From a virus, in the IMG/VR virus record IMGVR_UViG_3300049595_002631, positions 1 through 30,250 of that record: 30,250 nucleotides of DNA; one strand, written 5' to 3'. The position numbers and the translations under genes were made by a program. Below the pieces are notes generated by a model. It did not search any database, had not been told where the DNA came from, and worked only from the letters and a program-made list of their open reading frames with translations. Below are positions 275 through 15,895 of the stretch, one piece after another (the stretch's first letter is position 1; every line of letters begins with the position of its first letter).

Positions 275-277
275 GCG

Positions 278-1035: not shown

Positions 1036-1052
1036 TCGGGCCTCCGTGCGGC

Positions 1053-1090
1053 CCGGCGGGGGCTGGCGATGCGTAACCAGCCCCCGCCGG
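1053..1090. other. Strong perfect hairpin immediately downstream of the major capsid gene
   Basis: A 14-bp perfect stem (1053-1066 with 1077-1090; arm CCGGCGGGGGCTGG) encloses a 10-nt loop (CGATGCGTAA). It lies in the 75-bp gap between the capsid stop and the next start. On the minus strand it is followed by GGCCGCACGGAGG, which has no U-tract. It is therefore not a canonical intrinsic terminator. A transcript-stabilising or attenuating structure that sets capsid mRNA level apart from the neck genes is more likely. Confidence 0.75.
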
Positions 1091-1110
1091 AATCATTCAC
1101 ATTGATCAGG

Positions 1111-2328
1111 TCAGGCCTTGGCGAGGCGACCGACGAACTCGGGGCCGTGATTGCTCACGCCGAGCCGCGTCGAGGCCACGTACAGGTACTGCCGGCTGCG
1201 GACGAGCAGCTCGCGGGCCACGCTGATCTCCAGCCCGGTGTCCTTCAGGCCGACCGCGGTCGACATACCGAAGTCGCCGAACAGGGCCAGCGTCGTCGAG
1301 GGCAGGCCCTTGACGATGTAGACCGGGGCACCGAACAGGGTCGGCACCACGCGGCCACCGCCGACCACCTGGGTGGTCTGCTGGGCCGCCCAGATCTTCA
1401 TGAGATCCACGTAGCCGGCCTTCGAGCACACCCACGCGCCCGTGCCCATGATGGACTCGTCCACCTTGCCGACGACGTCGGCGAGGTTGGCGGCCGTCGT
1501 GGAAGCGTTGGCTGCCACAGTCACGGTATTGCCAGCCGCCACCGAGGCCGCGAGGCCGGTGATCGCCGGGTTTGCCGTGTTGCCGCCGAAAACCACATTG
1601 TCCATCCACCGGGACAGACCGTAGGAGCACCGGTCCACGATCAGGCCCGCGACGTCGATCGGCGAATCCTCGATGAGGGACCGCGACACGGGGATCGAGG
1701 CACCACCCTCGTAGAGGGTCAGGTCGGAACCGCTCGTCGTGATGTCCTGGTCGGTGAACGCCACGTTCTCGGCCGCGAAGCCGAACGTGACGTCGCCCGA
1801 CTTGGGCAGCGTGATCTTCTGGCCGCGGGGCCGGAAGATCGAGGCAAGCTGCATCGCCACCGACTGGTATTGCAGCCGGTTGACGATCGCGGAGTAGAGC
1901 TCGGTCACGACGAAGTCATCGCCGTAGCCGTCGACCGTCTCGCCCATGGCCCGATTGCTGACGCCGGCCAGGCCGCACAGATGGCGACCGACGGCCTCGG
2001 CGACCTTCACGGATCGGAACGCCCGCACGCCGGCCCGGATGTCGGGCGTGGCTTCAGCCTTCTCGTCGTCGCGGAACTGCCGCTCGACGTCCTCGCGGGA
2101 CTTGTCCGCGCTGCGGATGCCCTGCATCGACGCGATGGCAGCGTCGAGCTCGTGCTCGCGCTTGGCCTCGGACGCGATCTTGGCGGCCCGCTCCTGGGCG
2201 GACTTCAGCCGGCCCTCGATGCTCTCACGATCGGCGTCGTCCTTGGGCTCAAGCGAGCGAAGGGCGTTGATCTCGTTTTCGACCGCGACACTCTCGTCGG
2301 TCAGGAGGCGGAGCTTCGGGCTGGGCAT
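1111..2328 (-). CDS. Major capsid protein, HK97 fold, with N-terminal scaffolding (delta) domain
   Basis: This 405-aa protein forms the icosahedral shell. Residues 1-95 are highly charged and helix/coiled-coil forming (alternating E/K/R/A), like the HK97 delta domain that acts as internal scaffold and is removed by the prohead protease. The rest has the hallmarks of the fold: an E-loop region around RPRGQKITLPKSGDVTFGF, the ASIPVSRSLIEDSPID spine segment, YGLSRWMDNVVFGG, and a C-terminal domain ending GVSNHGPEFVGRLAKA. The start is ATG at 2328 with a GAGG site upstream. It is preceded by the recurrent 17-bp motif and followed by a large hairpin. Confidence 0.95.
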   Translation of the reverse strand: MPSPKLRLLTDESVAVENEINALRSLEPKDDADRESIEGRLKSAQERAAKIASEAKREHELDAAIASMQGIRSADKSREDVERQFRDDEKAEATPDIRAGVRAFRSVKVAEAVGRHLCGLAGVSNRAMGETVDGYGDDFVVTELYSAIVNRLQYQSVAMQLASIFRPRGQKITLPKSGDVTFGFAAENVAFTDQDITTSGSDLTLYEGGASIPVSRSLIEDSPIDVAGLIVDRCSYGLSRWMDNVVFGGNTANPAITGLAASVAAGNTVTVAANASTTAANLADVVGKVDESIMGTGAWVCSKAGYVDLMKIWAAQQTTQVVGGGRVVPTLFGAPVYIVKGLPSTTLALFGDFGMSTAVGLKDTGLEISVARELLVRSRQYLYVASTRLGVSNHGPEFVGRLAKA

Positions 2329-2394
2329 GGTTACCTCGGTTGGAGTTGGTGCGCGGTCTGTTTCGATCTCGCTCGCGGAAACCTACGAAGAGGC

Positions 2395-2413
2395 CACCGA
2401 TTTGCCCTATAGG
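2395..2413 (-). promoter_or_regulatory. Recurrent 17-bp late-operon motif, copy A (before major capsid gene)
   Basis: The minus strand reads ATAGGGCAAATCGGTGG, with flanking CT before and CC after shared with the copy before the portal gene. It lies in a 101-bp gap, 15 nt after the stop of the preceding gene and about 65 nt before the capsid ATG. Its distance from the start codon differs from copy to copy, so it is not a ribosome-binding site. A promoter or RNA-processing element is the likeliest reading. Confidence 0.6.
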
Positions 2414-2429
2414 CCGTCGGAAAAAAATC

Positions 2430-2717
2430 TCAGCGGACCGCGACCTTGCCGGCGATGGCAGCGTGAATCTCGCGCTGTCCTGCTGCCAGTTCGGCCAACG
2501 TCTCCGCCTGCCGCTCCTGGGTGCGACCGAGGCCGTCGAGCGTGGCCGTTGTCTGCTTCAGAAACGTCGAGTGGGCGTCGACGACCGGGACAACGACCGT
2601 CCTGTGTAGAGCGTGAGCCGCCTCGCGGAGCAGCCACAACAGCACCGCCAGCACGACGAACGGAACGCCGAACTCGCGGGCGGTGCGAAGACCGATCTCG
2701 ATGGTTTCCGTGTTCAC
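2430..2717 (-). CDS. Small single-pass membrane protein with coiled-coil tail; holin-like candidate
   Basis: The 95-aa product starts with GTG at 2717 (GGAGG 7 nt upstream; GTGA overlap with the preceding gene). After a short N-terminus there is one hydrophobic segment (FGVPFVVLAVLLWLL, about residues 15-30). The rest is a hydrophilic heptad-rich helix (STFLKQTTATLDGLGRTQER...) reaching the C-terminus. This is the architecture of small phage holin/BhlA-like proteins, which suits its place at the end of a membrane/peptidase cassette. No lysis motif proves it, so other membrane functions remain possible. Confidence 0.7.
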   Translation of the reverse strand: MNTETIEIGLRTAREFGVPFVVLAVLLWLLREAAHALHRTVVVPVVDAHSTFLKQTTATLDGLGRTQERQAETLAELAAGQREIHAAIAGKVAVR

Positions 2718-3010
2718 GTATGCTCCTCCCACCACTTCCTGACCAGCGCTTCCACGATCGCCCCGATGGCCCACCACAACAGCATGGTCGTGAGCGCGAA
2801 GCCACATCGGTCGCGGTAGACCAGCCGGACGCGCTGTTCCCATCGCTCGCGCATGGCACGACGGTCGCGACCGGCAAACGCCATCTCGCTGACCTGTGGC
2901 GATTGCTCGACGGCGGTGGCGACGACAGCATCGCACCGCTCGCGGCCGACCATGGCCCGCCGAATCGGAGATGCACCCAGGGAATGCCAGACGTAATCCG
3001 CGTCCGTCAT
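2714..3010 (-). CDS. Small basic protein with C-terminal membrane anchor, unknown function
   Basis: The product is 98 aa, starting with ATG at 3010 in an ATGA overlap with the trypsin-like gene, and ending in a GTGA overlap with the next gene. The first 65 residues are soluble and arginine-rich (GRDRRAMRERWEQRVRLVYR). A single transmembrane helix (CGFALTTMLLWWAIGAIVEAL, about 70-88) then precedes a short cationic tail (VRKWWEEHT). The coupling to a peptidase gene and to a second small membrane protein suggests a lysis or envelope-directed module, perhaps a pinholin or antiholin pair. That is inference. Confidence 0.7.
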   Translation of the reverse strand: MTDADYVWHSLGASPIRRAMVGRERCDAVVATAVEQSPQVSEMAFAGRDRRAMRERWEQRVRLVYRDRCGFALTTMLLWWAIGAIVEALVRKWWEEHT

Positions 3011-3777
3011 CGTTTCGCACACCTTCCGTCTCGGCAGCTGCCGGCGCGTGCCTGGGTGAGAAGTGCTCGGATCTCGGCGACATGGCTGCCGGCGGTCATC
3101 CCCTTGGACGATCCCCAGAGCACAGCGACGACTTCGCCGTCGGCGTTGAAGATCGGGCCGCCCGAGTCCCCCTGCCGGGCCGCAGCCTGGACCTCGACCA
3201 TGTGAGCCGGATGCCGGCCCGTGGGGCCGACGAACTGGGTGACATGGCCTGCCGCCTCGCGGTAGACGAACGGCGCCGGCCCGTAGCCGGCGAGCGTCAG
3301 CCGGTCGCCCACGGCCGGGGGCCGGGCCGCGATCGGCACCGGGGCTGCGGCTGGGGCCAGTGTCGCCAGGGCCGCCAGGTCGAAGGCGTCGTCGCTCGCG
3401 AGCACACGAGCCGGTCCGCTCGTGCCGTCGGGCCAGCGGATCGTGATCGCGTCCCTGTGGCCACGAACGACGTGCCATGCTGTCAGGACAACTCCCCGGC
3501 CCTCACGGGCCTCCACGAGCACGCCAGACCCGCAGTCGCGGGACGGGCCGGATCCGCACTCGACCCGGCAGACCGCTGGCCGGGGGCCGGTGGATGCGGC
3601 CGCCGCCTGGGCAGGGGGCGCCGGTTGGTCTGGCAGCTCGCCGGAACCATCGCACACCGGGCACGCGAACCGCACCGGGCCTGGCCCGACGACGCGGTCG
3701 CCGTGGCAGTTCGAGCACGGGGCAGCCGAGGCGGTCGCGGCCAGGAGCAGCGCAAGGAGGATGGATCGCATGGTCAC
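3007..3777 (-). CDS. Exported trypsin-like serine protease with N-terminal Cys4 zinc-finger-like segment
   Basis: This 256-aa protein begins with a signal peptide (MTMRSILLALLLAATASA, probable cleavage near residue 18-19). A DnaJ-type pair of knuckles follows: C21-x2-C24-x-G and C39-x2-C42-x-G-x-G. The chymotrypsin/HtrA-like domain has all three catalytic residues in context: His102 in TAWHVV, Asp133 in DAFDLAAL, and Ser205 in RQGDSGGP. No PDZ domain follows, and the tail is short and Cys-containing. An active, exported endopeptidase is strongly indicated. In a phage it could cut envelope or surface proteins during lysis, or act in the lysogen. It is translationally coupled to the papain-like gene upstream and to a membrane protein downstream. 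Confidence 0.88.
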   Translation of the reverse strand: MTMRSILLALLLAATASAAPCSNCHGDRVVGPGPVRFACPVCDGSGELPDQPAPPAQAAAASTGPRPAVCRVECGSGPSRDCGSGVLVEAREGRGVVLTAWHVVRGHRDAITIRWPDGTSGPARVLASDDAFDLAALATLAPAAAPVPIAARPPAVGDRLTLAGYGPAPFVYREAAGHVTQFVGPTGRHPAHMVEVQAAARQGDSGGPIFNADGEVVAVLWGSSKGMTAGSHVAEIRALLTQARAGSCRDGRCAKR

Positions 3778-4646
3778 CCGGCGGGCCGGCTCCAGTCATC
3801 GGGGAGAGTGACGGACGCCACAGCGAACGATCCCTGCCATGCGGACTTGGCCGTCCGCTCGGAGTCGTACCGCACGATGTCGTAGGAGTCCGGGTAGGCC
3901 ATAAGCCGCTGGTCTGGCATCCACCGTGCCCACGGCACCGCGTGCCCGTTGCGGCCCACGCTGACGACGTAGCCGTGGAGCACGAGGCACACGGCCTGCT
4001 CGTAGCTCTCAGGGAAGATCACCTCGTCTGGGCGGAACCATTTGGCTGTTTCCTCCCAGCCCTCCGGGAATCGTGAGACCGGCGTCCACGGCCCGCGTGC
4101 CTGGTTGAACCCGCCTTTTCCGGCCGTGCCCGGCATGGAGTGGCGGAACTGGTAGTCGAACGGCTGCACCGTCTCGGGAAGCATCCCGCGTCGGCAGGCA
4201 ATCTCCAGCACCGCCCTTACGTTCGCTCCTCCCCACTGCCGCGGATTCGCCTCGGCGTATACCGAGAGCGGCGACAGCCATACGGATCCGAACTCGCGCG
4301 ACTCGGGGTATCGGTATCCCACCTTCGGCCCGCCGAAGTTCACACCCCGCGCCCGGTTGCGAGCGGCCTCGACGTTGGCCCGGAGACTGTGGCATGTGCA
4401 TTCGTGGGTCGGGTTCTGGTTTGTGAACCGGTCGATGTAGTTCATCCCCCATGCCCCGGCCGCGTCGTTCTCACGTGCGCGGTCCACCCACTCGCGCGGC
4501 TCGATCCACAGGGCCTTCGGGAACTCCCTCGAGGCTGAACCGCAGGCGTCGCGCAGGGCGTCTGGCGTGTCCTCGATCGCAAGGCTGGCCGGGTAGCCGT
4601 CGTGTACGGCAGGGAAGACGTCGATCAGCTTTGGGTCGATCGTCAC
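3774..4646 (-). CDS. Papain-like (C1-type) cysteine peptidase
   Basis: The 290-aa protein has no signal peptide. Gln77 and Cys83 in NQNPTHECTCHS keep the six-residue papain spacing between the oxyanion Gln and the nucleophile. His235 in GRNGHAVPWA matches the 'xHAV' block, and a D/N-S-aromatic block (PDSYD, Asp252) follows at the right distance. The assignment rests on this Cys-His-Asx order. The neighbours are membrane and exported proteins, so it might be a lysis enzyme cutting peptide cross-bridges or envelope proteins; no canonical lysozyme, amidase or transglycosylase was found elsewhere in the genome. It overlaps its neighbours by ATGA/GTGA-type junctions. The fold is fairly sure; the substrate is unknown. 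Confidence 0.72.
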   Translation of the reverse strand: MTIDPKLIDVFPAVHDGYPASLAIEDTPDALRDACGSASREFPKALWIEPREWVDRARENDAAGAWGMNYIDRFTNQNPTHECTCHSLRANVEAARNRARGVNFGGPKVGYRYPESREFGSVWLSPLSVYAEANPRQWGGANVRAVLEIACRRGMLPETVQPFDYQFRHSMPGTAGKGGFNQARGPWTPVSRFPEGWEETAKWFRPDEVIFPESYEQAVCLVLHGYVVSVGRNGHAVPWARWMPDQRLMAYPDSYDIVRYDSERTAKSAWQGSFAVASVTLPDDWSRPAG

Positions 4647-5011
4647 GGCACGGCCTCCATCACCGCCGCTTCGCTGGCGGGCCTTGGCGTCACCCGGATA
4701 ACCGTCCGGCCCGCGATGGCGACGACCGCCGGTAGCCCCGCTTTACGGGCCGCATCCAGGGCGGAGCGATACTGCTCCGGCACGTCGCCGTCGCCGTCTG
4801 TCGTGTCGTCCTCGAAGAGCGTCGCGACCACCTTCCGCTCACGGTTCAGCCGGTTGACGGCGACGGACACGAACGGCGGCACGCCGCCGGCGTCCTTCTC
4901 GTAGACGTACACAGCCGCCGTGGCGGACCCGCTCGTGTCCACGTGTCCCCACTCGACGCGCGGCAGCGTCAGGAGGAGAAGCCCGGCGGCGATGAAGGCA
5001 AGCGGCCTCAC
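4643..5011 (-). CDS. Exported small protein (signal peptide), unknown function
   Basis: The product is 122 aa, starting with GTG at 5011 (GTGA overlap). It opens with a textbook export signal: MRP followed by LAFIAAGLLLLTLP. The mature part contains TAAVYVYEKD, then VVATLFEDD, AARKAGLPAVVAIAGRTVIRV and a Pro-rich end. The alternation of strands and helices and the 'G-hydrophobic-P-A-V-V-x-I-A-G' block are reminiscent of thioredoxin-like folds, but no CxxC is present. I do not recognise the family with confidence. It lies in the envelope-directed cassette upstream of the papain-like peptidase. Confidence 0.68.
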   Translation of the reverse strand: MRPLAFIAAGLLLLTLPRVEWGHVDTSGSATAAVYVYEKDAGGVPPFVSVAVNRLNRERKVVATLFEDDTTDGDGDVPEQYRSALDAARKAGLPAVVAIAGRTVIRVTPRPASEAAVMEAVP

Positions 5012-5250
5012 GACCTCGTGGCCTCCGGCTTGAGCAGCTCGTCGAGGAGCTGCTGGCAGACGGTCACGGCCTCGGCCTTCCCCTGGTCGCGGAGCCGGGC
5101 CGCTAGGTCGATGACAAGGCGAAGGTCGTCAACCGGAGTCCGCTCGCGACGCCGGCCGAACCGGACGCGGAACTGCTGCACACCGGCGAACACGCCGTAG
5201 CCGACCAGGCCGGTGGCAATCACGATCTGGGCGAGGGTCACGTAGTTCAC
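5008..5250 (-). CDS. Small single-pass membrane protein
   Basis: The GTG start at 5250 overlaps the previous stop (GTGA), giving 80 aa. The N-terminal helix (YVTLAQIVIATGLVGYGVFAGV, about 3-24) is a single transmembrane segment. It is followed by a basic stop-transfer stretch (RVRFGRRRERT) and a cytosolic helical region with DDLRLVIDLAARLRDQGK. An N-out/C-in anchor with a short helical domain is the visible design. Spanin-like, holin-like or superinfection-type roles are all possible; position in the cassette is the only functional clue. A longer frame beginning at 5385 has no support at its start. Confidence 0.65.
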   Translation of the reverse strand: MNYVTLAQIVIATGLVGYGVFAGVQQFRVRFGRRRERTPVDDLRLVIDLAARLRDQGKAEAVTVCQQLLDELLKPEATRS

Positions 5251-5501
5251 GGTGTCTTCTCCATGTCGGCGGCCTTGTCGGCGATCCACCCGGCCAGGGC
5301 CGCACCCTCCGGGGTCTTCAGGACGGCCGCCAGTCGGCGGGCCAGTTCGTCGTCGAGCCGATTGCCGGTTTTGCTCGCCAGCCACTCCATCGCGTCGGCG
5401 ATCACCTCGGCCCGCTGCCGGTCATCGGTGGCAGCCGACAGCCGACGGCCGTAGCCGAGCAGGGGAGCCCACTCCACGAGCAGCCGGACGCTGTCGAGCA
5501 T
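5247..5501 (-). CDS. Small helical hypothetical protein
   Basis: This 84-aa, mostly alpha-helical soluble protein begins MLDSVRLLVEWAPLLGYG and continues with charged helices (QRAEVIADAMEWLASKTGN; LDDELARRLAAVLKTPEG). No membrane segment, metal site or catalytic motif is evident. It starts 1 nt after the stop of the preceding gene and overlaps the following one by 4 nt, so it is part of the same translationally coupled cassette. Function not recognised. Confidence 0.62.
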   Translation of the reverse strand: MLDSVRLLVEWAPLLGYGRRLSAATDDRQRAEVIADAMEWLASKTGNRLDDELARRLAAVLKTPEGAALAGWIADKAADMEKTP

Positions 5502-5502
5502 G

Positions 5503-5874
5503 TCAGGCCCTCACGAGCGGAAGCACTTGCTCCACGGCCCCGGACGCCAGCGCCAACACGAGCGCCCGAACAGCCGGCCTGGCGATCATCCAGATCGGGT
5601 AGGCGACTGTCGGAACGGCCTTGTCGGCGACGGCGTCGAACAGGCTGGAGACGGCCTCCATGGCGAGCGCCTTTTTCTCAGCTCCTGTCATGGTGCCGAC
5701 GGCGTCCAGGCCGGCGATAACCAGCCGCAACAGGGCAAGCATGAGGTCGCCGAACTCGGCCCAGGTCAGGCCGCCTGCGGCCGCAGATTTTGCCGTCTCG
5801 ACGAACGCGTGGATCTTCGACAGCAGACCGGCGTCCAGGTTGCCGGCAACAGCGACAGGGGCGGCAGAAATCAT
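5503..5874 (-). CDS. Hydrophobic helical protein, possible membrane-associated lysis/cassette protein
   Basis: The product is 123 aa, starting with ATG at 5874 in an ATGA overlap with the prohead protease-HAD gene. It is alanine/leucine/valine-rich with several amphipathic to hydrophobic helices (LMLALLRLVIAGLDAV; VPTVAYPIWMIARPAVRALVLALASG) and few charges. A TGAEKKALAMEAV block separates the two hydrophobic parts. The composition suggests membrane association; a holin role is conceivable but unproven. It opens the eight-gene cassette that separates the protease from the capsid gene. Confidence 0.6.
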   Translation of the reverse strand: MISAAPVAVAGNLDAGLLSKIHAFVETAKSAAAGGLTWAEFGDLMLALLRLVIAGLDAVGTMTGAEKKALAMEAVSSLFDAVADKAVPTVAYPIWMIARPAVRALVLALASGAVEQVLPLVRA

Positions 5875-6875
5875 CGTGAGGCCTCCGTTGAACCGACAGC
5901 AATCCGCATCCGGGCGGCCGCGGCCGCCGCGGCGGCCCTGGCGCCCGCAAGCGTCGAGACCTTCACGCCGCGCGGGGACGCCGCGGCCCGCTCAGCGATC
6001 CCCTCCGGGTAGTCGTCGATCCAGATGTCGACAGAAAGGCCGGCGGCTGCTGCGGCCGACCGCTTTTGCTGGTCCGGCCCGACGAGCAGCACGCCGGCTA
6101 GTTCGTCGTGGATGTCCCCGAACGCGTCCCGCAGGGCGGCCCGGTTCTCCTCGGTGTCTTCGCGTCGAGTGATGCACACGACGCGGTTCCCACGGGCCTG
6201 GGCGTCGGCGACGAACGACCGCCACAGCCCTGGGGCCGCGGTGAACGTCCCGTCGAAGTCGAGCGAGATCGTCAGGCCGCGGGACTCGGCCCGGTGGGCC
6301 ATCGCGCTCCGGGCGTTCTTCCAGAGCGGGAGCGAACGGATCCCGGCCGTGCTTTGCGGGTAGGCCGGGTAGGTGACCGCCGAGATGTCGTAGAGGCCGC
6401 TCGCGCGGAACACCGTCCGGATCACGTTCCCCTTTTCGTCCTCGGTCCACGTCTCACCGTCCGGGGCTGACGTGAAGGCGAAACTCGCGCCGGTGATCGT
6501 GCGATCTTCGACGAGCATCGCGAGGTCGCGGCCGTGGGTCGTTTGGATCGGGCGGTGGGTGTACTCCAGCCCCTTCAGGCCCTTCCTGATCTCCAGCCGA
6601 CCATTCGTCGTCCGGCCCGTAATCAGGTGCGACAGGTGATCGGTGAGGAACGGAACGTCGATCTTCCCTCGCGGGTCGTTCGCCTTGCGGTCGACCAGGC
6701 CGTCGAAGGCCGTGGGCGCGAACTTCTCGCGGAAGCCGCCGAGGTCGACGGAGAACGAATCCCACGGCGGGGAGATCCCGGCGATGACGGGCGGCTCGCC
6801 GTCGCGCTTCTGGACGGTGATCGCGTCGGGGTAGTCGGCCGTGAGGAGATAGCGACGCTCGATCATGGTGGTCAT
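5871..6875 (-). CDS. HK97-family prohead protease fused to a C-terminal HAD-like phosphohydrolase domain
   Basis: The start is ATG at 6875 (MTTMIERRYLL), in an ATGA overlap with the portal stop; 334 aa. Residues about 1-185 are the U35 prohead protease. It has RYLLTADYP and the FREKFAPTAFD block, the catalytic His80 in FLTDHLSHLITGRT, and the catalytic Ser131 in ITGASFAF. The 'DISAVTYPAYPQS' ending is typical of the family. From about residue 200 a second domain begins, LTISLDFDGTF, with HAD motif I (Asp206, Asp208). Motif II-like CITRRED (Thr236) follows, and a DD pair (287-288) in DIWIDDYP. The protease cuts scaffold and capsid in the prohead. Whether the HAD domain is packaged, cleaved off or an independent phosphatase is unknown. 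The frame is continuous, with no sign of a sequencing join. Confidence 0.88.
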   Translation of the reverse strand: MTTMIERRYLLTADYPDAITVQKRDGEPPVIAGISPPWDSFSVDLGGFREKFAPTAFDGLVDRKANDPRGKIDVPFLTDHLSHLITGRTTNGRLEIRKGLKGLEYTHRPIQTTHGRDLAMLVEDRTITGASFAFTSAPDGETWTEDEKGNVIRTVFRASGLYDISAVTYPAYPQSTAGIRSLPLWKNARSAMAHRAESRGLTISLDFDGTFTAAPGLWRSFVADAQARGNRVVCITRREDTEENRAALRDAFGDIHDELAGVLLVGPDQQKRSAAAAAGLSVDIWIDDYPEGIAERAAASPRGVKVSTLAGARAAAAAAAARMRIAVGSTEASR

Positions 6876-8488
6876 GAGTTGCCCCCCGTGGAATCCGTGG
6901 TCAGTGGTGCGTCCGACAGCTCGGCCACCCGTTTGCCGACCGTGAACTCGGTCGGCTGGTCGCCCTGGTAAACGCGGATCAGGGCCGCCGGATCGTCGGG
7001 CGTGGCCTCGATCGCGAACGGCGATCCCTCGGTGCCCAGCGTCCCGGACGTCATCAGGTGCTCGATCACGCCGTCGCCGTCGGTCCAGTAGACGCGTTGC
7101 CCGACGGTGAACCCGCCCGCAGACGGAACGCTCTCGCCCTGGCTCGCGGCATCGCCATGGGCAGGATCGGCAACCGCCCCGGCGGCCCCCTTCTGGGCCT
7201 GGTTCGCCGCCATCTGGAGCGTCGAGAACCCAAGCTGGAGGAACGTCTTGTCGGCCTCCGGCTCTTCGAGCACCGGGAAGTCTTCGAGTTCGCGGATCTC
7301 GTTCGGCGTGATCGCCGACATGCTGAACAGCGCCCGATACAGGTTCGCCCGGGCAACCGAATCGCCGCGGAGCAGCGCCCGGTTGTCGAGCTGGAAGAAC
7401 GTGTTCTCGCCGTAGGTGTCGTTGAGCCAGAGGTTCACCGCCCCCTCGAACCGCTTCTGCCACGGCAGCAGGCACCACACCTGGGCCTGGAGGTTGTCGG
7501 CCTCGGGGCTGCCGTACCGCTGGGCCTTCGCGTCGCCGACGAGCGAGGCCGGGACACCCCAGTGGCTGCACACCTCGGGCAGGATGGATTCGCGGAGCTG
7601 CTGGAACTGGCTCTGCTCCATCGTGTTCGACTGCATGGGCACGAGCTTGTGGCCCGGGATCATGACCGCCGGCGTGCCGCGGTTGTCCCCGCCGTACATC
7701 TCGCGGAACTCCGACCGGTAGCGGGCCATGGTCGTGTCGTCCATCCGCTTGTCGGTCTCGATGACGAAGTCCGGACGGGCTCCCTTCTTCCAGAGCGTGA
7801 GGGCCGCGCCGTCGAGTTCGCGGGCGATCGTGATCGCCGTCGCGAGGGTGTCCGTCGGGGGCGTGCCCGTGATCCCTGTGTCTCCAAGCCAGCGGAAGTG
7901 AAGGACTTCACCCTGCTGGAGAGGCATCCACTTCCCGCCCTCGTCGAACCATTCGTAGGCGAGCGAGTAGTCGGCCAGCTGTTTCGTCCGCATCCGCCGA
8001 GGGTGGAGCGGGATCAGGTGGGTCATCGCCCCCCGGCTGCCGGCCACGACGCGGGCGAAGCCTCCGCCGTGGAGAGCGGTCCAGAAGCCTTGCAGGGTCC
8101 AGAAATCGAACGGACTCTGCCACGGGTTCGGCCGCACCCGCAAAGCGTGGACGCACTGCCGGTAGACGCTCGAAATCGGGTCGCCGAAGCCCTGCACGGC
8201 GTCGAGCGTCTTGCCGGCCAGCCGCACCTTCAGCCGGGGCGACATGCACCCGATCGACTGGGCGATGAACCGGCAGACGGAGAAGACGCTCGACACCCGG
8301 ACGGCCAGTTCGGGATGGACGCGCCGGCCCGAAACCGCGCCCCACGCAAACGGGTCGAGAAGCGTACTTTCGCCGATCGCCGCGCGTGCGGATGCCCGGG
8401 GCGACCTCCGTGAGGCGGGCCGCTTCGTCGTCTGCTTCTGCGGCGACCGCCTGGGGGCCGTGGACTTCGCGCGTGGCATGCGCGGCAT
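6872..8488 (-). CDS. Portal protein (HK97 family) with an extra C-terminal small beta-barrel-like domain
   Basis: The 538-aa portal forms the dodecameric DNA channel at one capsid vertex and docks terminase. Hallmarks are SVFSVCRFIAQSIG near residue 68, the R.NPWQSPFDFW block, IPLHPRRM, GEVLHFRWLGDTG, the long helical 'ANLYRALFSMSAITPNEIRELEDFP' clip/stem segment, and an Arg/Lys/Ser-rich N-terminus. After a Gln/Ala linker, residues from about 460 form an extra module beginning FTVGQRVYWTDGDGVIEHL and ending FTVGKRVAELSDAP. The first ATG at 8488 sits against GGAAGG; the second ATG at 8479 has better Shine-Dalgarno spacing. A copy of the recurrent 17-bp motif lies just upstream. Confidence 0.93.
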   Translation of the reverse strand: MPRMPRAKSTAPRRSPQKQTTKRPASRRSPRASARAAIGESTLLDPFAWGAVSGRRVHPELAVRVSSVFSVCRFIAQSIGCMSPRLKVRLAGKTLDAVQGFGDPISSVYRQCVHALRVRPNPWQSPFDFWTLQGFWTALHGGGFARVVAGSRGAMTHLIPLHPRRMRTKQLADYSLAYEWFDEGGKWMPLQQGEVLHFRWLGDTGITGTPPTDTLATAITIARELDGAALTLWKKGARPDFVIETDKRMDDTTMARYRSEFREMYGGDNRGTPAVMIPGHKLVPMQSNTMEQSQFQQLRESILPEVCSHWGVPASLVGDAKAQRYGSPEADNLQAQVWCLLPWQKRFEGAVNLWLNDTYGENTFFQLDNRALLRGDSVARANLYRALFSMSAITPNEIRELEDFPVLEEPEADKTFLQLGFSTLQMAANQAQKGAAGAVADPAHGDAASQGESVPSAGGFTVGQRVYWTDGDGVIEHLMTSGTLGTEGSPFAIEATPDDPAALIRVYQGDQPTEFTVGKRVAELSDAPLTTDSTGGNS

Positions 8489-8500
8489 CCTTCCAAACGG

Positions 8501-8519
8501 CCACCGATTTGCCCTATAG
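8501..8519 (-). promoter_or_regulatory. Recurrent 17-bp late-operon motif, copy B (before portal gene)
   Basis: The minus strand reads ATAGGGCAAATCGGTGG, flanked by CT and CC, identical across 21 bases to the copy before the capsid gene. It fills most of the 36-bp gap between the terminase stop (8525) and the portal start. With so little room, a transcript begun here would have a very short leader, or the element acts on the mRNA. Confidence 0.6.
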
Positions 8520-8524
8520 CCGCG

Positions 8525-10165
8525 TCACCAGAGGGGCTGTAGGAGTGGACCGTCTGCCGGCCGCTCCGACAATTCGGCGTCCTTCTCCATGGCGGCCGCG
8601 AACGCGTTGACCGCCGCCACGATGCCGTCGATCTTTTCCGGCGACTTCTCCTTGTCGGGCTTCACCATCCCCGTTGAGTCCTCGAACCACACGAGGTTAT
8701 TCGCGTTGAACAGCAGGATCGGCGATTCGTAGCCGAACTTCCCCTCGACCACCTCGCCCTCGAGCATCTTCGACGGGGCGTTCATCACGGTCGTACTGGG
8801 ACGGACCGCCTTCAGGTCGATCGACTCTTCTTCAAGCATCGACGCGATCGGCCCGATCTGCCACGGGTCGGCACACACGAGGGCGATCTTGTTCTGGCGG
8901 TCGAACTCAGCGATGTCGCGGGCGACGACCTTGTGGTTGAGTCTCGCCCCAGGCGTGACCGTCAGCCAGCCCTCGCGAGCCCATGTCGAGTAGGGGATGT
9001 TGTCCTTCGTCTCGCGCTCGCGGACGGTCTCCTCCGGAACCCAGTAGCGCATGACAGCGTAGTAGGATCCGTCGGCCAGCTTGAACAGGAAACAAGCCGC
9101 CGTCATGTCGATGTTCGAGGCGACGTCGATCCCGCAGACGCAGGTGAGCCCGGTCAGATCGGGCCGCGGCTTGCGGCAGTTCGCGAAGTGCTCGCCCGGG
9201 AAAGCCCGGTTGTCGGGGGCGGTCCACACGTTGAGCGAGTACCGCAGCCACTTCGAGAACTTGCGCGGATGCGTGAGCGAGTCTTCGTAGTCCGACCGGA
9301 ACTCGTCCTCCGTGAACGCTTCGCCGAGGCCCGGATTCGCCTTGGCCCAGGTAGCCGGGTCGTGCGGATCGTCGGCCTCGGGGTCGGCCGCGAAGATCAC
9401 GCCCAGGAGGCTCGGGTTCACGCTCGGGTCTTTCAGGACCAGCTCGGTCGCCTCCCACCACTCCCAGCCGATCCCGTTCCGGTTGTCGCCGGCCGTGGAG
9501 ATCGAGCCGATGATCGCGTTGGGGATGCCGCGCGTGGCGTACATGATCGTATCGACGAGGTCCGGCTTCTTGAAGCTGTGGATCTCGTCGAGCAGCACCA
9601 GGCCGTTGATGCCCTCCGAGACTTTCGCGTCGGCGGACAGGCAGCGGATCTCCTTCCCGTTCCGCTTGTTTCGGATCAGGTACTTGTGGTCGACGACGTC
9701 GAACACCGGCTCCAGGATCGGCGAGGCCTGGATCGAGTCCCGCACCATCCGCCACATCGTCCGGGCCTGGTCCTTGACGTTCGCCGCGAGAAAGACGTCC
9801 ATCCCGGCGACGACGTTGGCGAACTGGACGATCTGCGAGCAGCTCGTCGTCTTCCGGTTCTTCTTCGGAACGAAGACGCTGAACCGCCGGAACCGGAGCC
9901 GGCCGTTCGGCCGTCGCCACCCGAAGAGCGGGAAGAGCACGCGGTCCCGGAACCACGGGATCGGCGAGACCCGGACGATCTCGCCGCCCTCCGCCCGGTG
10001 GCGGCAGCACTTCTCGATGAACCGCCGCGGCTTGTCGGCCTCGTCGGCGTTCCACTGGAATCCTGGAACGTACTCGGGCCTCGAAGTCGGGTCGACGAAC
10101 AGGGAATCCGGCGTCGCCGAGTAGGCGTCAGCCGAACTCGGCGAGCGGGTCTTCCTCGTCTTCAT
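8525..10165 (-). CDS. terL: Terminase large subunit (Terminase_1/HK97-like)
   Basis: This 546-aa packaging motor has an N-terminal ATPase and a C-terminal nuclease. The ATPase contains the adenine-binding region near FRRFSVFVPKKNRKTT (residues 94-107, Walker A position), Walker B GLVLLDE (188-194, Asp193/Glu194), and a coupling-motif region around GSISTAGDN. The nuclease (RNase H fold) shows CGIDVASNIDMTAACF (first Asp), an internal VCADPWQIG, and a late acidic DGIVAAVNAFAAAM. Walker A is unusual in lacking the usual Gly (KKNRKTT instead of the common RKNGKST). The gene overlaps terS by 38 nt. Confidence 0.94.
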   Translation of the reverse strand: MKTRKTRSPSSADAYSATPDSLFVDPTSRPEYVPGFQWNADEADKPRRFIEKCCRHRAEGGEIVRVSPIPWFRDRVLFPLFGWRRPNGRLRFRRFSVFVPKKNRKTTSCSQIVQFANVVAGMDVFLAANVKDQARTMWRMVRDSIQASPILEPVFDVVDHKYLIRNKRNGKEIRCLSADAKVSEGINGLVLLDEIHSFKKPDLVDTIMYATRGIPNAIIGSISTAGDNRNGIGWEWWEATELVLKDPSVNPSLLGVIFAADPEADDPHDPATWAKANPGLGEAFTEDEFRSDYEDSLTHPRKFSKWLRYSLNVWTAPDNRAFPGEHFANCRKPRPDLTGLTCVCGIDVASNIDMTAACFLFKLADGSYYAVMRYWVPEETVRERETKDNIPYSTWAREGWLTVTPGARLNHKVVARDIAEFDRQNKIALVCADPWQIGPIASMLEEESIDLKAVRPSTTVMNAPSKMLEGEVVEGKFGYESPILLFNANNLVWFEDSTGMVKPDKEKSPEKIDGIVAAVNAFAAAMEKDAELSERPADGPLLQPLW

Positions 10166-10577
10166 CCTCGACCTCCGGGAGTCTTGCCGACGATGCCGCT
10201 GTCAGGCCGAAGTCTCGCGCGAGGCTCACCCAGTCGTTCCTGGCGGCTCGTGCCATCCTGGCGACAGGGTTTGCGACGGGTCCGCGGACAGTCTCGAGGA
10301 CAAAGCCCTCGCGAGCCAGCCTGGCGTCGAGCTGCTCCATCTCGGCGTGGAGCCGGCAGACGAGCGCGAATGCGTCGGCCTGATCTGGCGTCAGCCGTCC
10401 AGCGTCGATCAGTGACGGTGCCAGACGCTTCCACATGGCAGCAGCTGGTTTGTTATCCGCGAGTCCGTGCGGCATTCGGACAGCAACTGGCTCTGATCGC
10501 CGCGGCGCGCGCAGGGTGTTCCGACGGTCCGAGGAGCGCTGGCTTGTTGGGTCAGGGACTGGACCTCGGGAACCCAT
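10128..10577 (-). CDS. terS: Terminase small subunit (P27 family)
   Basis: The ATG at 10577 is favoured (GGAG 8 nt upstream; protein starts MGSRGPVP, the usual opening of P27 proteins) over the in-frame GTG at 10586. The product is 149 aa: a basic N-terminus, a central helical part (LTPDQADAFALVCRLHAEMEQLDARL), the characteristic ETVRGPVANPVARMARAARNDW block, and an acidic tail (EDEDEEDPLAEFG). It recognises the packaging site and regulates TerL. The gene follows directly on an AT-rich 210-bp intergenic island that could contain its binding site. Confidence 0.9.
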   Translation of the reverse strand: MGSRGPVPDPTSQRSSDRRNTLRAPRRSEPVAVRMPHGLADNKPAAAMWKRLAPSLIDAGRLTPDQADAFALVCRLHAEMEQLDARLAREGFVLETVRGPVANPVARMARAARNDWVSLARDFGLTAASSARLPEVEDEDEEDPLAEFG

Positions 10578-10644
10578 GAAGTTCACTCCGAAAACGGGTC
10601 AAAACCCGACAGGAACTCGCGTAGAGGCGGCGTGGGGCTCAGGA

Positions 10645-10668
10645 TTGTAACACCCATTTTTGTTACAA
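10645..10668. promoter_or_regulatory. Inverted repeat TTGTAAC-N10-GTTACAA overlapping an extended -10-like TGTTACAAT
   Basis: Perfect 7-bp arms lie at 10645-10651 and 10662-10668. The minus strand here carries TGTTACAAT (an extended -10 with TACAAT at 10644-10649), about 65-70 nt before the terS ATG. The operator-like repeat would thus overlap the promoter of the packaging genes. No good -35 is visible at the usual distance; TTGACG occurs further upstream. A similar GTTAC/GTAAC pair recurs at 10726-10745. Confidence 0.45.
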
Positions 10669-10690
10669 CCCACCCCCGTCAAACAAATAA

Positions 10691-10705
10691 CCGCAGTTTT
10701 TGCGG
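10691..10705 (-). terminator. Weak terminator-like hairpin at the end of the HNH transcript
   Basis: On the minus strand, CCGCA-AAAAC-TGCGG forms a short 5-bp stem followed by TTATTTGTTT, a T-rich run. It lies about 85-100 nt after the HNH stop. The stem is short, so partial termination at best. Confidence 0.3.
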
Positions 10706-10789
10706 CAAAAACACGCATTTTGACCGTTACTTCTGTAAGCGTAACACGAAAACACGGATATTCGCGGCGAAAACGCATGTTTTTCGGTA

Positions 10790-11086
10790 TCACAACACGC
10801 CCCGCCTCCGCTGCTCCGCCCTTGTCTTCCGTCCGTGGCACGACTCGCACAGCACCTGGAGGTTTGCCTCGTCATCGGTCCCACCATCTTCGAGTGGCAC
10901 GATGTGATCGACATGGGCAGCCTGCCCGTATGCGACACGCGAGCAGACGCGACATCGGTAGGCGTCGCGGACGAGGATCGCCTTCCGTCGTGCTCGCCAG
11001 TCCTTTGAGACGTAGTGGGCTCGCTCCTTCGTCGGCTGGGCCTTCATGTGGACAGGAGGCCTCCAGCGTACGATGCGTGCTGGCAT
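10790..11086 (-). CDS. HNH endonuclease adjacent to terminase genes
   Basis: The ATG at 11086 (MPARIVRW) gives 98 aa; it lies just 2 nt after the stop of the upstream gene. The HNH beta-beta-alpha-metal motif is complete: CRVCSRVAYGQAAHVDHIVPL (first CxxC and the His-Asp-His core), then NLQVLCESCHGRKT (Asn, second CxxC and the final His). HNH proteins next to terS in HK97-like phages are needed together with terminase for specific cutting at cos and for head morphogenesis. Position and size fit this role rather than a homing endonuclease, because no intron or interrupted gene is seen. Confidence 0.9.
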   Translation of the reverse strand: MPARIVRWRPPVHMKAQPTKERAHYVSKDWRARRKAILVRDAYRCRVCSRVAYGQAAHVDHIVPLEDGGTDDEANLQVLCESCHGRKTRAEQRRRGVL

Positions 11087-11088
11087 GT

Positions 11089-11487
11089 CTACAGCCCCGC
11101 CGCCTCGCGGAACGCGGCATCGAGTGCCGCGTCGTCCAGCCCCAGCGTCGGGGCGAGGGCCGCGAGCCACTCGCTCCCGCGGTGTACCTCGGTGCCGTAC
11201 TCCCACTCTACGCGGCAGCACTCCCCGGCCACCTCGTCGGCGAGCGACGCGATGGCGGCGTCCACTGCCGCGAGGCTCACGCCGTGGCGGACCAGCCACA
11301 GCCTGGCCTGCCGGGCCGAGATCGACTGCGGCACCGGCGAGTCGTCGGGTGCCATCTGCCAGCCGGCCGGCAGTTGATCGGCGGTGATCGCGGTGCAGCC
11401 TTCTGGCGGCGACCAGTGATCCGGCACATCTGGCCGCACGAACGTGACGACCAGGCCATCGGCGTTTACGATTGCGAGCGGTTCCAT
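11089..11487 (-). CDS. Tail-fibre-associated/assembly-like protein
   Basis: This 132-aa protein follows the glycine-rich fibre gene by 1 nt. The N-terminal part (MEPLAIVNADGLVVTFVRPD) is a short strand-rich piece. From about residue 55, SISARQARLWLVRHGV, the AAVDAAIASLAD block, then CCRVEWEYGTEVHRGSEW, PTLGLDDAALDAAF forms the helical pattern seen in many phage tail-fibre accessory proteins (XkdW/Tfa-type neighbours). Such proteins act as fibre chaperones or remain on the fibre tip. The call rests on this pattern plus position. Confidence 0.65.
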   Translation of the reverse strand: MEPLAIVNADGLVVTFVRPDVPDHWSPPEGCTAITADQLPAGWQMAPDDSPVPQSISARQARLWLVRHGVSLAAVDAAIASLADEVAGECCRVEWEYGTEVHRGSEWLAALAPTLGLDDAALDAAFREAAGL

Positions 11488-11488
11488 G

Positions 11489-13270
11489 TCAGTACCAGAC
11501 CGTGATTTTCACGATGCCGTCGGCTCCGTTGCCTCCGGCCCCCGAGTTGCCGACGCCGTCCACGGCCGCGCCGCCGCCGCCGCCGCCGCCGCCGGGGAAC
11601 GCCCCGTTGCCGCCGGCACCGCCGTTTCCGGCAGTGCTGGCACCACCACCACCGCCGCCCTGGCCGCACAGCGACATAGCGATGGCGCCGGCGTTTCCGC
11701 CATTCGCCCCGGCCGCCCCACCAGCGCCGCCGAACAGCGTGGCCGAGAACATCGACACGCGGCCGCCGGCGCCGCCCGAGTAGGCAACGTCTGCCGTGGA
11801 GATGCCGCCGCCCGCACCGCCGCCAGACGACGCGGCCGCGACTTCTTGCGCGGTTCCGCCTGTCTGTGTGGAAAACGAACTGCTGCCGGAGCCGCCCTGA
11901 AACGTGCCGCCCCACCCGCCGCCGCCGGAACCGTTGGTCGTCGTCCCGCCGTTGCCGCCTGCGCCGCCGCCAGCGTGGGCGATTCGGTCGTTTACCGTAT
12001 AAGATCCGCCGCGATAGCGAACCTCCGATAGCGAAGTCGAGGCGCCGCCCGATGCCGCATTTCCGTTCGTGCTGTTCGCCGTCTGCGCCGCGCCGCCCGC
12101 GCCGCCTGGGCCAACGCCGATCGTCACATCGCGAGTCGCCAGATCGGCAACGAAGTATTCCACAATCGTGCGGCTACCACCGCCGCCGCCGCCGCCGCCG
12201 AACCGTGCGTTTGTTGCCGCGCCTTTGCGGCCGCTGCCCCCGCCGCCGCCGCCGCCGACCGCTTCGATCCGCACCATGCGGCCGTTTGGTATCGTCCAGT
12301 CCCATATTCCGGTGCCGTTCGCCGTGGCATCGCTTGGCGCCGTCGCCCGCGTGAACGTGAACGTCTGCGACGGGCCGGTAGACCACGCGCCGTCGCCGCG
12401 CAGGTAAGTCGATGAACTCGCGGTTCCTGTCGCCAGCCGCGCCGCCGCCATCGTCCCGCTGCTGATGTTCCCGGCGTTCGTCGTGTCGGTCGTGGCCGAA
12501 GCGGCGAGACCGCTAACGCTTGCGGCTGCGATTGTCGCAGCCGTCGTCAATGCGCCGCCCGTGCCTGTAACGACAACCTGGCCGGCTGCCGTGCCAATCT
12601 TGCCGCCTGCCGTGATTGCGCCATGTTGGTGTGCGTTGGCAACGAATCCCACAACGCCCAGCGCATCATTTATGCCGTCGTCGTTGATTTCCTCCAGAAA
12701 CATGCCGGCGTCGCCCGCAATTAGAAACGCGGGCAAATCGCTCCTCGCCTCAACCGTTCCCCCTGTTGTCGTCCACAGCGCTTGATATGGCAGCGTGCCG
12801 ACTTTCCCGTCGCTTGTGATGTTTCCATGCGCATGGCTCGTTGGAGCCTTGCCTGCAAGCGAGTTCGTGACCGTCGTGGCGAACGACGCATCGTTTCCCA
12901 GTGCCGCCGCCAGTTCGTTCAGCGTGTCGAGCGTCGCCGGGGCCGAGTTGACGAGTCCAGCCACGGCCGTCGAAACGTCGGTCGGCGTAGCCTTGGAGTC
13001 GAGGGCGCTCTGGAGGCCGCTCACTGTCGAGATGGCCTGGGTGCCGGTGTGCGTCGAGCGGTCTCGGACCTGTGGGTCGACACGCAGCTGCCCGGACTGA
13101 ACGACCAACCCGTCACCGTGAGACAGCCCGATGACTGCCGCAGTCGTCGTGCCGCTGTTCGTCACGGGTGCAGCGACATTCACGACGCCGCTTGCGCCAG
13201 CAGGCCCGACACCTCCAGTCACGTTTGCCGTGACCTCGATCGGTTCGACCTTGACCTCGATGTCGCTCAC
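11489..13270 (-). CDS. Tail fibre/receptor-binding protein with glycine-rich C-terminal domain
   Basis: GTG at 13270 (MSDIEVKVEP), GTGA overlap; 593 aa. Residues 1-300 are shaft-like with repeated fibre signatures: DSKATPTDVSTAVAGL, an AHGNITSDGKVGT / HQHGAITAGGKIGT duplication, and the SGTMAAARLATGTASSSTYLRGDGAW block common in tail fibres. From about residue 338 to 583 it becomes extremely glycine-rich, with GGGGGGGSGRKG and several GGAGG/GGGG runs separated by short polar loops. This resembles the polyglycine-II sandwich of T-even-type adhesins, whose loops contact the receptor. It probably determines host range. The Pro/Ala-rich frames on the opposite strand are shadows of the Gly codons. 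Confidence 0.88.
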   Translation of the reverse strand: MSDIEVKVEPIEVTANVTGGVGPAGASGVVNVAAPVTNSGTTTAAVIGLSHGDGLVVQSGQLRVDPQVRDRSTHTGTQAISTVSGLQSALDSKATPTDVSTAVAGLVNSAPATLDTLNELAAALGNDASFATTVTNSLAGKAPTSHAHGNITSDGKVGTLPYQALWTTTGGTVEARSDLPAFLIAGDAGMFLEEINDDGINDALGVVGFVANAHQHGAITAGGKIGTAAGQVVVTGTGGALTTAATIAAASVSGLAASATTDTTNAGNISSGTMAAARLATGTASSSTYLRGDGAWSTGPSQTFTFTRATAPSDATANGTGIWDWTIPNGRMVRIEAVGGGGGGGSGRKGAATNARFGGGGGGGGSRTIVEYFVADLATRDVTIGVGPGGAGGAAQTANSTNGNAASGGASTSLSEVRYRGGSYTVNDRIAHAGGGAGGNGGTTTNGSGGGGWGGTFQGGSGSSSFSTQTGGTAQEVAAASSGGGAGGGISTADVAYSGGAGGRVSMFSATLFGGAGGAAGANGGNAGAIAMSLCGQGGGGGGASTAGNGGAGGNGAFPGGGGGGGGAAVDGVGNSGAGGNGADGIVKITVWY

Positions 13271-13584
13271 CGGAGCACCTCGCACGTGCCTCCGAGAATG
13301 TCCCGGACACCGCCAGGAGACGTCCATCGTATGCGGACTCCAAGCGTGCCGATCGGCAGGGTGTTGCCTGTCGCCAGCGGAATGGAAAGGCTGACCTTAC
13401 CGAGGGCAGCGTCGACGGTCGTGATCGCCGGCGTGGCCAGAATTTCTCCGGTGTTCAGCGAGTAGATCTCGGCCACCCACGTGTAGCCGGTGGTCGCGAC
13501 GCTGAAGTCCAGCGCAGCGGAATAGTCGTTCCCGCGCACGAACGCGACATGAAGCGGGCTGCGCGGCTGGAGTGCGGAGGCCAT
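13267..13584 (-). CDS. Baseplate/tail-tip protein (BppU N-terminal-like)
   Basis: The ATG at 13584 (MASALQPRSPLHVAF) gives 105 aa. RGNDYSAALDFSVATTGYTWVAEIYS is the recurring opening of upper-baseplate/fibre-adaptor proteins, a small beta-sandwich; the rest alternates strands (KVSLSIPLATGNTLPIG, GVRIRWTSPGG) and ends EVLR. Its job is probably to anchor the downstream fibre to the tail tip. No Shine-Dalgarno precedes the ATG, but the recurrent 17-bp motif lies 19 nt upstream. The longer frame to 13695 is out of context and overlaps the HTH gene. Confidence 0.72.
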   Translation of the reverse strand: MASALQPRSPLHVAFVRGNDYSAALDFSVATTGYTWVAEIYSLNTGEILATPAITTVDAALGKVSLSIPLATGNTLPIGTLGVRIRWTSPGGVRDILGGTCEVLR

Positions 13585-13603
13585 GCCGCGAGGGTAGCGG
13601 CGT

Positions 13604-13620
13604 CCACCGATTTGCCCTAT
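13604..13620 (-). promoter_or_regulatory. Recurrent 17-bp late-operon motif, copy C (before baseplate/fibre operon)
   Basis: The minus strand reads ATAGGGCAAATCGGTGG, identical to the core of the copies before the portal and major capsid genes. The TAG stop of the upstream HTH gene is the TAG in this motif. It marks the switch from the early/replication block to the structural genes. Confidence 0.6.
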
Positions 13621-13952
13621 GAGCCGCGGATGTCTGCCATCTGCTGCCGCAGCTCGTCCGGAGACGGGTCTTCGCGCCGCTGGACGTCCATCCACGACCT
13701 TTTCCTACGCGGCACGTGTTGCAGTTGGTCTCGAAGGATTCGCTGGATGGTGTTCCTGCAAACACCGATGGCGTCCGCGATCGCCTCCAGGCTCCTTCCC
13801 GTCCTGAACATGCGTTCGACGGCCCTCACCTGGATCGCCGAGAGAACGATCCGCGTCGACCCGAGCAGACGCCCGTTCCTGTCGCGGACGAGCCGTCGCC
13901 GATTCCTTCCCCAACTGCGCGAAACGTCGCGTAGCACCATGCTGGCCTCCAT
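13617..13952 (-). CDS. Resolvase-type HTH DNA-binding protein, candidate late regulator
   Basis: This is a 111-aa basic protein. A recombinase-like HTH occupies about residues 43-75: AVERMFRTGRSLEAIADAIG, then VCRNTIQRILRDQL. An Arg-rich linker and a conserved-looking acidic tail (REDPSPDELRQQMADIRGS) follow. There is no catalytic serine-recombinase domain, so it binds DNA without rearranging it. It is the last gene of the early block, and its stop codon lies inside the motif that precedes the structural genes. This is the position of late-gene activators (Q- or ArpU-like). Function as a late activator is inference. Confidence 0.75.
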   Translation of the reverse strand: MEASMVLRDVSRSWGRNRRRLVRDRNGRLLGSTRIVLSAIQVRAVERMFRTGRSLEAIADAIGVCRNTIQRILRDQLQHVPRRKRSWMDVQRREDPSPDELRQQMADIRGS

Positions 13953-13972
13953 GCCTTCATGCGATCACACGA

Positions 13973-14455
13973 TCACGCCGTCACACGATGGAACGTCGCC
14001 TCGTGGTCCGTCTCTTCGAGGTCGAAGGCCGTGACCGCCACGGCCAGGGCCGCCCACCTGTGGTTCGAGATTCCGTAGAGCGGACCCGGTGCCTTCTTCG
14101 TACCGACTTGGCCGAACCGGTCAATCAGGGCTTGCCGGATGTTTCCGTCCTTCGCCCGTGGGGATCCGCAGATGTGCAGCTTGATGTCGCGGCGTGGGAC
14201 AAGGCGGACGTCCTTGATCGCAGCCATGCGACCGATCGAGAAAACCGTCTCGAAGACCTCACGGCCGACAGCCATGCCGAAGGATTCGATCCACTCGATC
14301 GCGACGCGCCGACCGCCGGCGACGTTCAGCCACGATCCCGGAACGTAGTTCGGCGCGTCTCCTGATTCGAGCACGCGCGAGCCGCTCCACAGAACCCACG
14401 CGAACTCCCTCGGGCCTGGGTCGATGCCGAGCACTGCTGAAGCGTTGCTTTTCAT
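13973..14455 (-). CDS. RuvC-like (RNase H-fold) Holliday junction resolvase
   Basis: The 160-aa protein begins ASAVLGIDPGPREFAWVLW: the first catalytic Asp (residue 12) lies in the usual 'GIDPG' strand. The second acidic residue is Glu54 in VAIEWIESFGMAVG. HRWAALAVAVTAFD near residue 132 matches the C-terminal helix that carries the last metal ligands in RuvC/phage resolvases. A Lys/Arg-rich stretch (VPRRDIKLHICGSPRAKDGNIRQAL) could contact DNA. The enzyme would resolve recombination intermediates before packaging. It is coupled (ATGA-type overlap) to the replication protein upstream. Confidence 0.8.
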   Translation of the reverse strand: MKSNASAVLGIDPGPREFAWVLWSGSRVLESGDAPNYVPGSWLNVAGGRRVAIEWIESFGMAVGREVFETVFSIGRMAAIKDVRLVPRRDIKLHICGSPRAKDGNIRQALIDRFGQVGTKKAPGPLYGISNHRWAALAVAVTAFDLEETDHEATFHRVTA

Positions 14456-15870: not shown

Positions 15871-15878
15871 CCGTTCCT

Positions 15879-15895
15879 CCGTGTATTTGCCCTGT
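15879..15895 (-). promoter_or_regulatory. Degenerate fourth copy of the recurrent motif, before the tiny HTH gene
   Basis: The minus strand reads ACAGGGCAAATACACGG, matching ATAGGGCAAATCGGTGG at 12 of 17 positions with GGGCAAAT intact. It sits immediately before the Shine-Dalgarno of the 45-aa HTH gene, in a 159-bp stretch without a gene (15871-16029). It may be a weaker site of the same kind, or chance. Confidence 0.3.

Follow-up and report, generated by a model that had tools for sequence, protein, structure and literature searches.

The IMG/VR virus contig IMGVR_UViG_3300049595_002631, a stretch of 30,250 nucleotides (nt) that was analysed as a whole and is called the window here, carries a 17-bp motif, ATAGGGCAAATCGGTGG, in three exact copies on its minus strand. 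One copy precedes the major capsid gene, another the portal gene, and the third a small gene (p3) followed by a tail-fibre-like gene. This motif, or box, is probably the -35-region element of three late promoters, and a 111-residue helix-turn-helix (HTH) protein encoded in the same genome most likely binds it and activates the late genes. The copies, their places, their joint change within genomes, a near-fixed spacing to a -10-like hexamer and a link between the box and the recognition helix of the HTH protein are observed directly. The contig has an exact 127-bp direct terminal repeat (1-127 and 30124-30250), and is therefore likely to be a complete circular genome of about 30.1 kb.

A box repeated before late genes

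Apart from the three copies (Table 1), the window holds no match to the motif at up to three mismatches, and the next-best matches have five. In shuffled sequences the mean number of matches was 0.05, and none of 100 shuffles reached three or more. The preliminary description of this DNA was thus right that chance can hardly account for three exact copies on one strand, although two of its positions (2395-2413 and 8501-8519) were slightly off. As it had noted, two of the copies share 21 bases (2392-2412 and 8499-8519) and all three precede structural genes. The nearest upstream stop codon lies 19 nt before copy 1 and 7 nt before copy 2, as expected from the claim that each copy follows a stop; copy 3 instead contains the stop codon of the 111-residue open reading frame (ORF). 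The motif ends 65 nt ahead of the start codon of the capsid gene and 19 nt ahead of that of p3, both as first given. For the portal gene, the earlier value of about 10 nt gives way to 21 nt, counted to the conserved ATG; an earlier in-frame ATG lies at 12 nt and is not kept in frame in some relatives. One of the five-mismatch matches, AGGGCAAAT (15879-15895, minus strand), stands shortly 5' of a GGAGG and an ATG and is probably a chance occurrence.

The preliminary description had asked whether the motif is conserved in related genomes or lies at random places there, and a scan of IMG/VR, in which many records of relatives are fragments, found it conserved in place. The exact motif occurred 38 times in 33 stretches, and 35 of these matches, in 30 stretches, lay in the same three contexts; the other three stretches (L017, L029 and L030) have unrelated flanks. 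A box was found upstream of the portal gene in all 35 portal loci, 30 of them with the window type and five with a second type, called TTCA, which reads TTCAAGGG(T/A)TCGG or TTCAGCGGGTCGG. Of 50 capsid loci found, 40 were inspected and 16 carried a window-type box; the remaining ten were mostly cut near the start, partial or remote, with L103 and L046 dropped by choice. The boxes of more distant clades read TTCAAGGGTTCGG, TTCAGCGGGTCGG or GAGATTC. In the TTCA clade a further box, followed by the hexamer pattern described below, lies inside coding sequence upstream of a 110-residue tail-region gene (L098:10623, L061:10577 and L214, the last as G019 20665), and its letters vary in step with the other copies despite having a coding role as well. 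At the corresponding position the window lacks a box.

Copies within a genome tend to change together. The window box reads GGGCAAATCGG, as do both copies in G011, while both copies in G010 read GGTCAAGTCGG. All three copies read GGGCCAATCGG in G004 and GGGCCAGTCGG in G003. Likewise, three copies read TTCAGCGGGTCGG in L061 and three read TTCAAGGGTTCGG in G001, at homologous places in both; G001 has a fourth, diverged copy before p3. Like the hexamer and helix tests below, the numerical comparison used chosen representatives, here six window-type lineages. The mean difference between copies within a genome was 0.86 (14 pairs), against 2.28 for the same site between genomes (36 pairs). Relabelling the copies did as well in 4 of 720 arrangements (portal against capsid) and in 1 of 576 (four genomes with three sites). 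Such joint change points to one trans-acting recogniser per genome.

In two other clades (L094, L102, L105, L122 and relatives) a near-perfect palindrome, CGTCCTACCGTAGGACG, is present upstream of the capsid promoter and could be a hairpin, a terminator or an operator. It was considered as the box of these clades and rejected, being found in the scanned loci only before the capsid gene; the boxes that recur in these clades are GAGATTCNNCC and ACTTTNCCG.

Spacing to a -10-like hexamer

Downstream of the box a hexamer of the form xANNNT was found, whose A and T are the key letters of a bacterial -10 element. It lies 10 or 11 nt after the TCGG of the box at all 29 chosen sites (23 window-type and 6 TTCA-type), and at any other exact offset it is present at no more than 3 of the 29. 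With one representative per clade and site the pattern held in 7 of 7 cases, and the best of 20,000 shuffles reached 5. The GAGATTC clade is the nearest to an independent check of this spacing. There, xANNNT lies exactly 18 nt after GAGATTC at all 15 box sites of four genomes, and GAGATTCNNCC is confined to these 15 sites in the sequence analysed. Its copies (four each in G002, G020 and G023, three in G006) share one strand and precede the portal gene, the capsid gene, p3 (not seen in G006) and a fourth late gene. The ACTTTNCCG clade gives weaker evidence, as its spacing to xANNNT varies from 15 to 17 nt and extra matches exist.

The distance from box to hexamer is nearly constant, while that from box to start codon varies. 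The near-fixed distance indicates that the motif occupies the -35 region; with the T of the hexamer set at -7, the 17-mer would span about -37 to -21. In 37 of the 44 p3 loci that could be judged (49 in total, five of them cut off), the box is followed by TANNNT and then by 6-7 nt to the ATG. The predicted p3 start falls on the ATG or one base before it, which would explain why the start-codon distance is so variable. The strength of the ribosome-binding sequence was tried as a way of separating the sites and gave no clean split: AGGAGG is matched at five or more of six positions by 13 of 29 starts in the window, at three of six by p3 and at five of six by the portal gene.

This arrangement bears on several other functions. 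An operator for a phage repressor that silences the late genes, overlapping the -35 region, would have the same anatomy, and sets of repressors and operators also change together. However, the 17-mer is neither a palindrome nor a tandem repeat, and it replaces a -35 element: no consensus sigma-70 promoter was found in 1-15500 of the window, and a promoter with the motif in place of its -35 element would be weak without help. Moreover, no gene indicative of lysogeny turned up among the ORFs scanned, a subset of those in the window. A repressor operator is thus considered improbable.

Still less probable is a role in RNA, as a processing signal, a translational operator or a leader structure. 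The motif is intergenic and always on the coding strand, as would suit such a role, but six stretches folded no better than their shuffles (z from -0.49 to 0.51), no Rfam family was matched, and the spacing of the box is held to the hexamer and not to the start codon. The RNA-processing signal suggested in the preliminary description accordingly found no support.

A promoter for a single-subunit RNA polymerase of the T7 type, or a tag for packaging or recombination, was the least credible of the functions considered. The TATAGGG of the motif is shared with the T7 promoter and resembles its start region, and this speaks for the former; yet no RNA polymerase family was matched among the ORFs scanned, and TATAGGG is lost in other clades in which the hexamer is kept. 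Three or four copies at fixed genes and on one strand would be ill-suited to packaging.

The 111-residue HTH protein as candidate recogniser

Window-type, TTCA-type (G001, G007 and G019) and GAGATTC-type genomes all have an HTH gene immediately preceding the p3 box. The HTH protein of the window is basic, with 25 lysine and arginine residues against 13 aspartate and glutamate residues. Homology is detected between the proteins of the window and G001 (expectation value E 4e-11) and between those of G001 and G002 (E 7e-10). A structure model (mean predicted local distance difference test score, pLDDT, 68) contains helices at residues 39-50, 55-62 and 66-75, and the last of these is the recognition helix according to the model, which matched no PDB entry at E 0.001 or better and named no family. 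For the window protein the matches were weak, to generic HTH models, and all stayed below the curated cut-offs. When 16 members were compared with Pfam, NCBIfam and PHROGs, RinA, ArpU and Ltr were not among the families listed, though those libraries may lack models for some Ltr families. Models of sigma factors gave weak matches in up to 8 of the 16 members (best E 7.3e-05; window 0.0015), far below the 259-bit cut-off and beside transposase and other HTH models, so that descent from a sigma factor is not established. Regions 2 and 4 with a significant family match, which would mark a sigma-70 factor, were not found in this protein of 111 residues and one HTH. Among 50,697 phage records of isolates, neither the HTH protein (E 0.01) nor the capsid protein (E 1e-5) had a match.

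The link between protein and box is seen in the recognition helix. Boxes reading GGGCAAATCGG go with the helix VCRNT(I/L)QR(I/L)LRD, boxes of the GGGCC(A/G/A)(A/G)TCGG types of G004, L074 and G003 with VSRNTLQRRLRD, GGTCAGATCGG with VSKNTLYAIVTR, and GTGCCAATCGG with VSRRTLFRLLDG. Across nine lineages the distance between boxes correlated with the distance between recognition helices (r 0.75, reached in 110 of 20,000 permutations), as compared with r 0.29 (642 of 20,000) for p3 as a control. Among G003, L078 and L169, which have three different boxes, p3 is 93-96% identical and the RuvC-like neighbours are 84-86% identical, while the HTH proteins share only 43-61%. In segments of 60 nt, DNA identity within the HTH gene falls to 30-67%, and the flanks are mostly higher. 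L078 carries the box of the window together with the VCRNT helix, yet its p3 is 96% identical to that of G003. On these grounds it is likely that the HTH protein recognises the box.

The boxes could also be late-promoter elements that are recognised by another phage DNA-binding protein or by an alternative sigma factor of the host, which is considered unlikely. Two further small HTH genes of the window do code for a protein of the winged-HTH type (15416-15736) and one of the resolvase type (15733-16005), and the 17 bp of the conserved block exceed the usual length of a -35 element. In the loci checked, however, the winged-HTH protein was confined to window-type genomes and that of the resolvase type to three window-type genomes and G001 (E up to 1e-3), whereas an HTH gene precedes the p3 box in all three clade types. 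As to a host factor, the portals of G003, G010 and G011 are 94-96% identical and their boxes are of three kinds, and a shared host factor does not predict a change of box between near-identical phages.

Several observations weigh against the proposed pairing of late promoter and HTH activator, the two further HTH genes of the window being one. Joint change is imperfect: the copies in G017 differ mutually at up to several positions, those in G003 differ at the last base, and the p3 boxes of G001 and G007 (TTCAAGCCCTCGG) differ by 3 from the other copies. The within-genome difference in G007 (2.33) is about the between-genome value of its clade (2.56). Seven of the 44 p3 homologues, from more distant phages, show neither box nor hexamer. 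The portal hexamer of the window overlaps a Shine-Dalgarno-like GGAAGG, so conservation at this site could be partly translational. With regard to the protein, the HTH of the GAGATTC clade (G002) is linked to that of the window only through the TTCA clade (direct comparison E 4.3) and was missed by a profile search, and a search of 16 records, many of them fragments, recovered the HTH in 4. G004 and G003 share a recognition helix and have boxes that differ by one base (A/G) and the last letter. The p3 control also correlates weakly with the box, and the 5' part of the RuvC-like gene shows 43-73% identity in 60-nt segments, so the HTH gene is not the sole divergent stretch. Finally, sites, regular expressions and offsets were picked after inspection of the sequences, and the statistics describe a pattern that had been found; they are not a blind test.

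Even so, a late promoter with an activator site, which combines two of the functions raised in the preliminary description, is supported by the conserved places, the joint change, the hexamer spacing and the recognition helix that changes with the box. The promoter identity, start points, binding, activation and timing given here are predictions from sequence. Host RNA polymerase would contact the -10-like xANNNT, 10-11 nt after the TCGG of the box, and a phage protein, most likely the 111-residue HTH protein, would occupy the box and so stand in for the -35 contact that sigma region 4 normally makes. The protein would be made from the last gene before the late block, and its binding would switch on the late genes, with the three promoters reading the packaging and tail-fibre, portal, and capsid and tail blocks. 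The genes preceding the late block would be early, because of their replication and recombination matches. Transcription of p3, and of the portal gene in the clade of the window, would begin at the ATG itself or one nucleotide 5' of it, and capsid transcripts would carry a leader of about 45 nt.

A broader and more tentative proposal is that the system represents a stand-alone module for reading the -35 region, in which a small HTH protein, perhaps derived from sigma region 4, takes over recognition for the host polymerase at late genes. Its specificity would switch fast between near-identical phages, with three or four boxes rewritten in step as if selected against cross-activation, and leaderless late messages would be the rule at one promoter.

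Neighbouring genes, host leads and known systems

The features of the window are collected in Table 1. The ORF containing p3 (13267-13695) had no match in PHROGs or Pfam, and a tRNA scan of the window returned nothing. The winged-HTH and resolvase-type genes lie beside the replication gene, on the minus strand. Between copy 1 and the stop codon that closes the upstream ORF lies a run of seven T, which is also present in the relatives of clade I (window-type); it might end the upstream transcript, and a terminator scan made no call there. In L124 a hairpin-like GCCCGCC...GGCGGGC flanks the T-run before the capsid box.

Table 1. Boxes, predicted promoter elements and genes of the window
Feature	Position	Strand	Basis
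Box copy 1, before the major capsid gene; predicted at -37 to -21	2394..2410	-	motif match, relatives
Box copy 2, before the portal gene	8501..8517	-	motif match, relatives
Box copy 3, before p3 and the tail-fibre gene; contains the HTH-gene stop codon	13604..13620	-	
-10-like hexamer TAGGTT (capsid); predicted start 2373, leader about 45 nt	2380..2385	-	
-10-like hexamer AAGGAT (portal); predicted start 8480, one base 5' of the conserved ATG at 8479	8487..8492	-	
-10-like hexamer TACCCT (p3); predicted start 13584, the A of the p3 ATG, leaderless	13591..13596	-	
Major capsid protein	1111..2328	-	PF05065 9.6e-23
Portal protein, from the conserved ATG	6872..8479	-	PF04860 5.4e-63
p3, 105-residue late gene, function unassigned	13267..13584	-	
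Glycine-rich tail-fibre-like protein	11489..13327	-	phrog_2631 1.5e-18
111-residue basic HTH protein, proposed box recogniser; predicted recognition helix at residues 66-75	13617..13952	-	
Run of seven T, between the upstream ORF stop codon and copy 1	2421..2427	-	

Leads to a host came from 314 candidate stretches in genome_contigs, two of which encode a relative of the capsid protein. The first is a 40,167-bp contig of a Planctomycetaceae metagenome-assembled genome (MAG) (L147/L159-L161), homologous to the window over about 10.5-38.0 kb; this phage relative is about 10 kb longer than the genome of the window. The second is a 6,219-bp contig of an Alphaproteobacteria MAG. Both are possibly binned phage, and the relative in the planctomycete bin is a lead to the host. 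A loose pattern with 2 mismatches also gave chance matches in the Planctomycetaceae genome (3 and 3 in the control against 2 and 6), so that only their place identifies sites there.

If correct, these assignments give a family of uncultured phages a readable late regulon, whose box, hexamer and probable activator can be identified with nothing but sequence. Swaps between the natural pairs of box and recognition helix offer a direct test of how a small HTH activator achieves its DNA specificity, and the pairs raise the question of why close relatives rewrite all copies in step. The exact motif was in no paper of the open-licence literature searched, and no paper describing this system was found there.

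Several known systems are comparable in part. In the T7 group, the promoters of a genome all vary in concert with the part of a single phage protein that sets specificity, as is seen here for the boxes. That protein is a single-subunit polymerase acting at 23-bp promoters, whereas the protein proposed here is a small HTH protein that would work with host polymerase. The start-associated sequences of cluster K mycobacteriophages are reportedly tied to translation starts, while the present motif keeps its spacing to a -10-like hexamer rather than to the start codon. Both are short repeats before certain phage genes (PMC3203893).

The T4 MotA box also replaces the -35 element and lies 12 +/- 1 bp from a sigma-70 -10 element (PMC2988021). 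Here TCGG ends 10-11 bp before the hexamer, a likeness of geometry only. MotA boxes act at middle genes, depend on AsiA and are combined with a good TATAAT, whereas the boxes of the window stand before late genes with poor hexamers; neither MotA nor AsiA had a match among the window ORFs scanned. Late activators of the Ltr/RinA type in Gram-positive phages are reported to use about four repeats at one promoter, and for Ltr of the Staphylococcus aureus phage phi13 these span -107 to -42 (PMC13123087); here a single box at about -37 to -21 serves each of three or four promoters, with no extra match at up to three mismatches in the window. By analogy, the system would work like a late activator of the Ltr/RinA type in which a MotA-box-like site substitutes for the -35 element. 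It may show a minimal redirection of host polymerase, like the sigma appropriation of T4, in unrelated small phages.

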